A stretch of DNA of 64,000 bases from Acidobacteriota bacterium. Lineage in GTDB: Bacteria > Acidobacteriota > Blastocatellia > Pyrinomonadales > Pyrinomonadaceae. The notes beneath the pieces were generated by a model that saw nothing but the letters and a program-made list of their open reading frames with translations, made no database searches and was not told the origin of the DNA. The position numbers and the translations under genes were made by a program. Below, in pieces: positions 33,552 to 46,824 of this stretch. Numbering within the stretch: the stretch's first letter is position 1; the number at the start of each line of letters is the position of its first letter. Location: the NCBI GenBank assembly GCA_019639175.1, contig JAHBSK010000003.1, forward strand, positions 248,001 through 312,000. Direction: 5' to 3'.

Positions 33552-33715
33552 AAAGCATCGTCAATTCGGATCGGGCCGGTATCCTGACTTGTAACTATTT
33601 TCTCCTGTCCTTCCCGCGTTTACGCAGTGAACTTACTCTTGGAGAAACAAGGATCGTTACTTACAGTTGCGCGACAGTTCGTGATTTACACACGATTCCC
33701 TTTTAATTTGCGTTA
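33552..33715 (-). promoter_or_regulatory. Cobalamin (adenosylcobalamin) riboswitch
   Basis: Read on the minus strand, the conserved parts appear in order: AAAGGGAAT at the 5' side, GCGCAACTGTAAGTAA, a TTCACTG element (for GCCACTG), GCGGGAAGG, and the B12 box AAGTCAGGATACC. Spacing is normal for the class. The coordinates of the closing stem are approximate. A leader of about 285 bases separates it from the radical SAM start codon. Binding of cobalamin normally lowers expression of the downstream gene. Confidence 0.9.
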
Positions 33716-33803
33716 AGCAAAACCCTTGCCGTTTCGATAAGAAATAACTTATTAAAGAACTTAAATTGAACTATAACAGATAGGGCCGGATTTAAAGAAC
33801 CAA

Positions 33804-39315: not shown

Positions 39316-39993
39316 CTATCCCAGATCATACATCCCGGTTAGAAAAGGATTGGTCTGTCTTTCACGCCCTATGGTCGTGTCGGGGCCGTGGCCGGAATAT
39401 ACGGTAAGGCCGTCGCCGAGCGGAAGTATCTTGTTGTTGATGGAATCGATAAGCTGCTCGTAGCTGCCGCCGGGCAGGTCGGTTCGCCCAATGGAACCCG
39501 CAAACAGGCAATCGCCCGCGAACACGGCCTGTTCCTTCATTTCCGCAAAAATGACGTGGCCCGGCGTGTGGCCGGGGCAATGCAGCACCTTGAATACAAG
39601 CTCGCCGACCGCGTATTCCTCGCCGTCCGTCCAGTACCGCGTTATCGGCGGCGGAACATCGTAGTCCAGCCCCAAAGCCGAAAGCTGCTCCGGCGGCAGG
39701 CCCATCCGCAAAGGCTGCTGCGGCAAATTTTGATAGAGCACGTCATCGTCTGCGTGCAGAATTATCTCAGCATCGGGAAACTCCCGCTTCAACGCCCCTA
39801 CGCCGCCGATGTGGTCAAGATGAGCATGTGTAAGCGTTATCGCTTGCAGGTCATAGCCGTTCGAACGTATGTATTCAACCAGCTCCGGCGAATCCTCGCC
39901 CGGATCGATACAAACGGCCTTTCCGGTCTTTTCACAGGCAACGACCCGCGTATTTTGCTGAAACAGCGACAGAATGAATGTTTCTATAATCAT
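39316..39993 (-). CDS. MBL-fold hydrolase (glyoxalase II-like)
   Basis: A 225-residue metallo-beta-lactamase fold protein. The metal motif is T-H56-A-H58-L-D60-H61, followed by the CPGHTPGHVIF and FAGDCLFAGSIGRTDL segments found in glyoxalase II-like and persulfide dioxygenase-like enzymes. The C-terminal SGHGPDTTIGRER provides the last ligand. It likely hydrolyses a thioester such as S-lactoylglutathione or a related thiol ester. The start overlaps the upstream gene by four bases. Confidence 0.9.
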   Translation of the reverse strand: MIIETFILSLFQQNTRVVACEKTGKAVCIDPGEDSPELVEYIRSNGYDLQAITLTHAHLDHIGGVGALKREFPDAEIILHADDDVLYQNLPQQPLRMGLPPEQLSALGLDYDVPPPITRYWTDGEEYAVGELVFKVLHCPGHTPGHVIFAEMKEQAVFAGDCLFAGSIGRTDLPGGSYEQLIDSINNKILPLGDGLTVYSGHGPDTTIGRERQTNPFLTGMYDLG

Positions 39994-40277
39994 TTATCAG
40001 AAAATTGCTCCATGTGCGAAAAAAAATCGAAATCTTTTTCCATTCGTCGTTTTAAAATAATAGAGATCGCATTACGGTATGTTTCGGCGGTCGGAATTCC
40101 GGTAAAACATGGTGTCTCGATCTCAGAAAGGCTGAGATAGCTGACCAGACAGCTGAGCAGCATCCATAGAAGGGTCTCTTCTTCTGTCCCGATCGGGTTG
40201 TGCTTCAGGATGCTCTCGCGATCGGCGGCTATGCCGTCGCAGATGCGTTTGAATTCCAGCTCGGTTATCCTGGCCAT
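39990..40277 (-). CDS. Small conserved-looking protein of unknown function
   Basis: A 95-residue helical protein (LEFKRICDGIAADRESILKHN, then LLWMLLSCLVSYLSL). It overlaps the MBL hydrolase by four bases, so translation is probably coupled. I see no known domain. The coupling argues that it is real. Confidence 0.65.
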   Translation of the reverse strand: MARITELEFKRICDGIAADRESILKHNPIGTEEETLLWMLLSCLVSYLSLSEIETPCFTGIPTAETYRNAISIILKRRMEKDFDFFSHMEQFSDK

Positions 40278-40336
40278 ATATTGAAATTACAACATATTGT
40301 GTCCGCATCGGCCAATGACCGAAAATAGGACACCTT

Positions 40337-40355
40337 CGGTCAAAGCGATTGACCG
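40337..40355. promoter_or_regulatory. Dyad likely to bind a sigma-54 activator
   Basis: CGGTCAA-AGCGA-TTGACCG is a perfect inverted repeat with seven-base arms. It sits at about -139 to -121 relative to the predicted start of the structured RNA, the usual place for an enhancer-binding protein site. A second looser dyad (GTGTCC at 40299-40304, GGACAC at 40328-40333) lies just upstream. Confidence 0.55.
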
Positions 40356-40449
40356 TTGTATGAAATAAATACATACAGCAAACGGCGGCTTTTTCCGTCA
40401 AAACCCGTAAGTTGTTATATTTACACGGCCTGACATAATAATATGGTTA

Positions 40450-40465
40450 TGGCACACCCTTTGCT
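40450..40465 (+). promoter_or_regulatory. Sigma-54 (-24/-12) promoter
   Basis: TGGCACACCCTTTGCT matches the sigma-54 consensus with the strict GG-N10-GC spacing (GG at 40451-40452, GC at 40463-40464). Predicted transcription start is at about 40476. No protein gene follows on this strand; a structured, ATG-free region does. The match and spacing are seen directly; sigma factor use is inferred. Confidence 0.75.
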
Positions 40466-40475
40466 TAAGAAATTG

Positions 40476-40828
40476 CGTATCGGAAGGTACGGTTTTGAAA
40501 ATTTTTAAGGTCAACTGAAGGGCGGTTCGGAGTTTGAGCCGTCAATAGCGGTATTTGACCTCGGCCTCATCAGGCCGGCACAGTTTTGAGAAGAGGCCTA
40601 GATTGCTTGGGGGAAAATCTTCGAGTGTGGGCACGAAGACTAGATCGGGTCTCTTCTCAAATTAAATTTTTTGATCTTTGAAAACGAAAATTCGGCAAGC
40701 TTCTTGTCTAATCGTTATAGGGTGAACATTAATCTACGATAATCTTCCACACCTTCAAATAAAGCTTTCGAAATTTTGTTTTCATTGAAGAATCGGGGTC
40801 GTCTCAATCAGGCGATCCCGATTTTTTT
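40476..40828 (+). ncRNA. Candidate sigma-54-dependent structured RNA, family unknown
   Basis: About 350 bases from the predicted start to an intrinsic terminator, with no ATG in the + strand. Stems visible by eye, in order: CGTATC-GGAA-GGTACG starting at +1 (GNRA-type loop); AGGTCAA (40508-40514) with TTGACCT (40555-40561), enclosing GGCGGTTC/GAGCCGTC (40521-40543); CGGCCT-CATC-AGGCCG (40562-40577); and an 11-pair stem TTTGAGAAGAG/CTCTTCTCAAA (40585-40595, 40651-40661) enclosing TCTTCG/CGAAGA (40618-40639). GGA appears in the loops of the first two hairpins and in the TGGGGGAAAA stretch. The last 25 bases run antisense to the end of the acetyltransferase gene. Confidence 0.7.
40791..40828 (+). 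terminator. Intrinsic terminator of the structured RNA
   Basis: AATCGGGGTCG (40791-40801) pairs with CGATCCCGATT (40813-40823) over 11 pairs including one G-U, followed by seven T. In the opposite direction there is no T-run, so it serves the + strand only. Confidence 0.88.
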
Positions 40829-41265
40829 GTCTGTTCGTACAGTAGATAGTATGTTTCTTTCATCCCGAGCTTTTCATAAACCTTTTTTGCATGCTCATTG
40901 TCCTTTTCAACATAAAGACGAAAACCGCAGACATTTTCTTTTTCGGCCTTTTCCCTGACAAACCCGTATAGCTTTGAGTAAATGTGCCTGCCGCGAGCCT
41001 CCGGCCGGATGTAAACGCTCTGTATCCACCAGAACCAGCCGTTTCGCCAATCGCTCCATTCGTATGTGACCATCAGGCCGCCGGATATTTGGCCACCCTG
41101 TTCGGCAACAACGTAAAATCCTTTGCCCGGATCATCAAATACCGCCCTTACGCCTTTTGCCAGCGTGTCGCGGTCCAGCATTTTCCCTTCGGTCTCCATT
41201 GCCATCGCCTGGTTAAAATCGACCAGAGCCTCGGCGTCGTTCTCGGTTGCGGTCCTTATGTTCAT
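40804..41265 (-). CDS. GNAT family N-acetyltransferase
   Basis: A 153-residue GNAT protein: N-terminal IRTATENDAEALVDFNQAM, central WIQSVYIRPEARGRHIYSKLYGFV (the acetyl-CoA pyrophosphate loop, here PEARGRHI in place of the usual Q/RxxGxG/A), and FRLYVEKDNEHAKKVYEKLGM at the end. It acetylates an unknown amine. The coding end is overlapped on the other strand by the terminator of the structured RNA. Confidence 0.88.
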   Translation of the reverse strand: MNIRTATENDAEALVDFNQAMAMETEGKMLDRDTLAKGVRAVFDDPGKGFYVVAEQGGQISGGLMVTYEWSDWRNGWFWWIQSVYIRPEARGRHIYSKLYGFVREKAEKENVCGFRLYVEKDNEHAKKVYEKLGMKETYYLLYEQTKKSGSPD

Positions 41266-46564: not shown

Positions 46565-46695
46565 ACGGATATAATAACGTTTCCGAGGTTATATTTTGAA
46601 GTGGAAAGAAGAAAAAGATCAATCACTATGCCTTATCACCCCGATCAGATCAGAGTGTTATTGATTCAGCGAACTTATGTTAATATTCCTTTCGT

Positions 46696-46768
46696 GCACC
46701 CGTAGCTCAGTGGATAGAGCTCTTGATTCGCATTCAGAAGGTCGCGGGTTCGAGTCCCGCCGGGTGCA
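46696..46768 (+). tRNA. tRNA with anticodon CGC (Ala by anticodon, Arg-like body)
   Basis: A complete cloverleaf with all invariant bases: acceptor GCACCCG/CGGGTGC, T8, D arm GCTC-AGTGGATA-GAGC, TTC-containing T arm GCGGG-TTCGAGT-CCCGC, and discriminator A. CCA is not encoded. The anticodon loop TTCGCAT gives CGC, which would read the alanine codon GCG. The body and A20 resemble tRNA-Arg, and pair 3-70 is A-U, not the G-U that alanyl-tRNA synthetase needs. The anticodon stem is weak (one C-A mismatch, one G-U). Confidence 0.8.
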
Positions 46769-46824
46769 TAAAACAATAGTGCAGATATCCTTGACTAAAT
46801 TACAGAAATTCTGTAGTTTAAAGG

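Follow-up and report, generated by a model that had tools for sequence, protein, structure and literature searches.

A conserved structured RNA of one Pyrinomonadaceae genus as the probable output of a two-component/sigma-54 circuit

The window, that is, the whole 64,000-nucleotide stretch of acidobacterial DNA analysed here, carries at 40476-40830 what comparison of homologous loci indicates is a real structured non-coding RNA of about 350 nt. We consider it probable, at roughly 0.75, that this RNA founds a new regulatory family under signal control, which would be the output of a two-component/sigma-54 circuit. The first-pass annotation had proposed a regulated non-coding RNA that is driven by sigma-54 and has its own terminator, and the promoter box, the covarying stems and the terminator support that proposal. 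Features read from a single sequence are suggestive only, and the matter was decided by conservation. The locus comprised the following elements.

39990-40277, minus strand: flanking gene for a 95-residue protein without a family match, marking the conserved locus
40316-40332, plus strand: candidate distal activator site TGACCGAAAATAGGACA, from the EM motif, 17.5 bits
40337-40355, unstranded: dyad CGGTCAAAGCGATTGACCG of the first-pass annotation, present, not conserved, lying between both activator sites
40357-40373, plus strand: candidate proximal activator site TGTATGAAATAAATACA, from the EM motif, 93 bp upstream of the start of the -24 box
40450-40464, plus strand: sigma-54 -24/-12 box TGGCACACCCTTTGC, a strict match, in 17/17 homologous loci
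40476-40830, plus strand: predicted non-coding RNA, its start placed from the -12 element and its end from the terminator
40479-40521, plus strand: 5' purine-rich segment, ATCGGAAGG and GGTCAACTGAAGG, conserved in sequence, its hairpin lineage-specific
40522-40580, plus strand: variable 5' domain, with species-dependent length and hairpins (promoter-to-core distance 111-190)
40585-40661, plus strand: P1 core hairpin, a covarying stem of 14-16 bp
40605-40616, plus strand: P1 internal loop GCTTGGGGGnAA, nearly invariant
40618-40639, plus strand: P1 apical hairpin TCTTCGnGTGTGGGCACGAAGA, nearly invariant
40680-40783, plus strand: P2 domain, with a long-range stem of GAAAACGAAA (40680-40689) and TTTTGTTTTC (40774-40783), its pairing judged against shuffled arms
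40716-40744, plus strand: conserved loop sequence TATAGGGTGAACATTAATCTACGATAATC within P2, from homologue comparison
40787-40827, plus strand: intrinsic terminator, 18 pairs including G-U followed by a T-run, overlapping the end of the convergent GNAT gene
40804-41265, minus strand: GNAT acetyltransferase gene, the convergent flank, in 39/41 congeners with or without the RNA

The consensus -24/-12 box described in the first pass was confirmed as the sole strict sigma-54 match within the window, and TGGCAC-N5-TTGC was perfect upstream of the RNA in all 17 homologous loci. Since about 0.17 strict boxes would be expected in the window by chance (shuffled windows), the box on its own would be weak evidence. 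The intrinsic terminator likewise stood, now with 18 pairs when G-U is counted; its stem was kept between species and its sequence differed. The RNA loci inspected all adjoined the same convergent GNAT gene.

The RNA was present in 15 of 60 related genomes searched, all 15 belonging to the window's own genus. Extending the homologue search with R1, a covariance model of the core hairpin, placed it in 17 of 41 congeners (17 species of the same Pyrinomonadaceae genus) and in none of the class's other 121 genomes. When the exact pattern of the apical hairpin was scanned against 84,980 species, 16 records matched, and all those with a group in the title were Acidobacteria, including Pyrinomonadaceae and gp4; one was titled only 'bacterium'. 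Viral contigs, plasmids and phages that were searched gave no match, and an origin in a mobile element was rejected on that ground. A search of the window and 13 homologous loci with Rfam 15 found no family at gathering score over the RNA, and at lax thresholds every match fell far under its cut-off; the first-pass annotation, too, could not match the RNA to a known family. A relative of 6S RNA was considered and rejected, as no 6S model matched here and a separate 6S-like locus was found elsewhere in the genome (46 bits, just below the 46.4 cut-off). By membership, then, the RNA belongs to no known RNA family; it is a new family, and new in the phylum too. Acido-1 and Acido-Lenti-1 (RF01686, RF01687) are structured non-coding RNAs of Acidobacteria that were both submitted to Rfam (PMC2864571), and Rfam has no match to the RNA described here. 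Elsewhere in the window lie a cobalamin riboswitch (33557-33742, minus strand, 89 bits) and a tRNA-Ala with anticodon CGC (46695-46769, plus strand).

The strand 40475-40832 folded at -123.6 kcal/mol (z -5.8), with none of 100 shuffles as low; together with covariation in the P1 and P2 stems, this bears out a structured RNA. In conserved order, the RNA comprised the purine-rich 5' segment, then the variable domain, P1, P2 and the terminator. Compensatory base changes, the absence of which from homologues would have counted against the RNA, were found in number in these two stems. In P1, 96% of cells were paired and two-sided changes occurred at 9 pairs, giving a covariation score of 0.409 against 0.208 in shuffles (0/500 as high) that clearly exceeded every slid register; in the P2 stem 160 of 170 cells were paired, against at most 142 with shuffled arms. 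The six pairs of the P1 apical stem showed no variation across homologues, so covariation does not support this helix, and the frozen sequence suggests direct recognition instead. Conservation was concentrated in loops, and nearly invariant G-rich motifs (GGAAGG, GCUUGGGGGAAA, GUGUGGGCA and AGGGUGAAC) were carried on covarying stems. Across homologues the P2 loop sequence read TATAGGGTGAACATTAATCTAC and the 5' segment read ATCGGAAGG, thereafter about GGACAACTGAAGG. A first hairpin, CGTATC-GGAA-GGTACG, had been reported to begin at the predicted +1, and it does start there (40476), but its pairing was kept in the nearest relatives only; beyond them it was reduced to the kept sequence ATCGGAAGG. 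AGGGTGAAC was duplicated in tandem at two homologous loci (L006 and L007) and imperfectly at a third (L004). A pseudoknot of AGGGTG with a downstream CAC..CCT was tried and rejected, fitting some species and broken in others.

Upstream of the promoter, the dyad CGGTCAA-AGCGA-TTGACCG (40337-40355) is present and perfect as first reported. It recurred in the closest relative only, with one mismatch, and was gone in L003 and beyond. Relatives that keep the RNA retained the box throughout (17/17) and lost the dyad beyond the closest one. Unlike the 17-bp sites that flank it, the dyad is not conserved and is probably not the activator site it had been taken for. These flanking sites were recovered by an unsupervised EM search upstream of 14 non-redundant RNA promoters, with two sites per promoter by design. 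The resulting motif was 17 bp long, TGTATGGAAATCGAACA, and scored 507, compared with at most 242 in 12 shuffled sets; its two sites lay 41-44 bp apart in every species and scored 17.5 and 16.7 bits at the RNA promoter of the window. It is likely, from their conservation and spacing, that the two sites flanking the dyad are activator sites.

The genome encodes 13 strong sigma-54 activator genes and has 15 strict sigma-54 boxes. Motif sites at these boxes were scored from a permissive 6 bits, with at least 8 bits taken as convincing. Three of the 15 had such sites: those of the RNA, of an NtrC-family regulator gene (18.3 and 14.6 bits) and of a gene for a 71-residue membrane protein (12.9 and 11.6 bits); one further box had a single 7.1-bit match. 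All three promoters have a site at -92/-93. As the motif had been learnt from RNA promoters only, its match at the promoter of the regulator is independent of them, and this NtrC-family response regulator, whose gene lies elsewhere, is the likely activator of the RNA. In 15 of 19 species the regulator promoter had sites scoring 13 bits or more, which were missing in the other 4; random sequence had 16 per 400 kb. The regulator (500 aa, G000:C12:286217-287719) is made up of receiver, sigma-54 interaction and Fis-type domains and matched none of the named NCBIfam regulators at cut-off. Its gene is divergent from that of a hybrid PAS histidine kinase, an arrangement also seen in all six other species compared. 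Judging by its two motif sites, the membrane protein locus (L112, 1346-1783, on G000:C12; sigma-54 box TGGCACGTTCATTGC, protein beginning MAKEIVTIEGEEVVVRK) is probably controlled by this regulator as well, as a third target. Of the two roles suggested in the first pass, nitrogen or envelope control, its probable co-regulation hints weakly at the envelope.

Several further observations concern these promoters. Many regulator genes (upstream regions L147, L148, L149, L156, L157 and L160) had a second, very strong motif site of up to 22 bits, which lies on the opposite strand 19-59 bases ahead of the start codon. Several also had the box TGGCACG-N4-TTGA, oriented towards the divergent kinase gene on its own strand, and the two features may perhaps reflect negative feedback or divergent control. 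Many of the other strict sigma-54 boxes (L103, L105, L106, L108, L116 and L117) precede genes with signal-peptide-like starts, in line with a role of sigma-54 in the cell exterior.

The RNA and the regulator largely occurred together. A regulator orthologue was found in 20 of 41 congeners, comprising 16 of the 17 RNA-bearing genomes and four without the RNA; the RNA-bearing genome without an orthologue (G028) is 89% complete. In the four RNA-less genomes the assembly is incomplete, and the RNA locus is missing, truncated or at the end of a contig: the GNAT gene was not found in G006 and G062, was cut in G018, and in G005 is followed by only 88 bases of contig. Past the GNAT gene, G005 has a GC-rich repeat, GAACCCACCCGCTAACGCGAGG, at which its contig stops (L058, 1945-2032), so the RNA locus of G005 cannot be judged. 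Those RNA-less congeners that were inspected had the GNAT gene and lacked both the sigma-54 box and the RNA. RpoN itself was present in 39 of 41 congeners. In the RpoN tree all carriers formed one clade (support 95/88), and the joint occurrence of RNA and regulator therefore amounts to a single shared origin and is only supportive.

How the RNA acts, and whether it is non-coding at all, admitted several readings. It might be the mRNA of a small protein or a cis-acting leader, as GTG and TGA are enriched and AGGGTGAAC could begin a tiny GTG frame, but we regard this as improbable. The lack of any ATG from 40476 to the terminator, noted in the first pass, is true for this transcript (P about 0.02, shuffles); most homologues contain some ATG, and across them the triplet is depleted (28 observed against 50.6 expected, z -3.9). 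Spacings between conserved motifs differ by non-multiples of three, changes in the stems preserve pairing and not codons, and the terminator ends the RNA ahead of the convergent gene. A protein-coding role is thus unlikely; the GTG frame was itself rejected on the homologue sequences, its length not being conserved and no spaced ribosome-binding site preceding it. A sponge for CsrA, which the first-pass annotation had raised, can draw on GGA in several loops and 3-11 GGA per homologue. The RNA of the window, however, has three GGA, and its loops are not conserved as hairpins in the manner of the many GGA loops of CsrB/RsmZ. The CsrA family (PF02599) was absent here and in all but two of the congeners searched, with positive controls, which, barring an unrecognised CsrA, rules out such a sponge for this genome; with csrA also rare in the genus, we rejected the idea and give it hardly any credence. 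The two congeners that do encode CsrA are G005 (L018) and G023 (L019), the latter being the only RNA-bearing genome with CsrA.

This leaves two modes of action in trans. The RNA may be a protein-sequestering decoy with the logic of CsrB or 6S applied to a different protein, its repeated ribosome-binding-site-like motifs titrating a translational regulator. Each RNA has several like purine-rich motifs, one lineage carries a tandem duplication of AGGGUGAAC, as is common for binding sites, and both the apical hairpin and the internal loop are frozen, which suggests that shape and sequence are recognised; set against this, the motif copies per RNA are few and CsrA, the protein known for such motifs, is absent. 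The RNA may alternatively be a trans-acting base-pairing sRNA whose G-rich loops are seeds that pair, with help from Hfq, to C-rich stretches in several mRNAs in the manner of Qrr. Hfq is encoded by all 41 congeners, conservation sits mostly in loops, the circuit is LuxO-Qrr-like (PMC4878744) and the terminator here is U-tailed. Yet the conserved loops paired with the regulator's leader no better than chance, a pairing seed needs no such freezing as the apical stem shows in the lack of compensatory change, the purine-rich motifs resemble ribosome-binding sites and not their complements, and several homologues have short U-runs in the terminator. Feedback pairing to that leader was accordingly dropped (three conserved segments gave a mean z near 0). 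The ribosome-binding-site-like motifs, the frozen hairpin and the duplicated motif place the decoy slightly above base pairing, so we favour the decoy tentatively, at somewhat short of even odds, and hold pairing through Hfq to be a plausible competitor. The fuller proposal, of a decoy RNA outside the CsrA world that is made by a circuit dedicated to it, presents its motifs on a rigid scaffold, titrates a translational regulator and evolved independently in Acidobacteria, is speculative and rather doubtful.

From the structure, promoter, site motif, shared sites and joint occurrence observed, we infer a circuit that would run as follows. The cytosolic hybrid PAS histidine kinase probably phosphorylates the NtrC-family regulator (receiver, AAA+ and Fis-type helix-turn-helix), which would bind the two 17-bp sites about 41 bp apart, or four helical turns, whose starts lie 134 and 93 bp ahead of the -24 element. 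It would thereby drive the sigma-54 polymerase to make the untranslated RNA of about 350 nt, ended by its own terminator, would activate its own gene via the same sites, and probably also activates the gene of the 71-residue membrane protein. The RNA probably acts in trans, in the slightly preferred mode by titrating a protein that recognises ribosome-binding-site-like motifs and otherwise by Hfq-assisted pairing with mRNAs.

In LuxO-Qrr, an NtrC-family response regulator and sigma-54 direct the synthesis of a non-coding RNA (PMC4878744). The same pairing of NtrC-family response regulator and sigma-54 is predicted from sequence for the RNA described here, and this likeness, combined with the lack of family membership, led us to file it as a sigma-54, response-regulator-controlled regulatory RNA. 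Unlike Qrr of Vibrio, to which it has no sequence relation, it is a single, larger RNA of about 350 nt that contains two covarying domains and comes from another phylum; the kinase here is a cytosolic hybrid and the regulator seems to activate its own gene too. GlmY/GlmZ (under GlrR) and CrcZ (under CbrB) likewise combine a sigma-54 promoter and a response-regulator activator with a protein-titrating RNA, and the present RNA had no Rfam match to either. With the CsrB/RsmZ sponges it shares GGA-containing loops and, as predicted here, two-component control, but CsrA is missing, GGA loops are few and the conserved motifs differ from the CsrA hairpin motif.

Annotated RNA families in Acidobacteria are few: in the table of one review the phylum has 4 distinct sRNAs and Proteobacteria have 345 (PMC9029176). 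What is gained here is a structured RNA family together with its promoter, its likely activator, candidate sites of that activator and a small candidate regulon. The near-invariant motifs and the absence of CsrA make the protein or mRNA partner of the RNA specifically testable. The circuit would show the arrangement of LuxO-Qrr, from kinase to sigma-54 activator to RNA, in an unrelated phylum, and suggests that the little-studied Acidobacteria have a signal-controlled regulatory RNA of their own.
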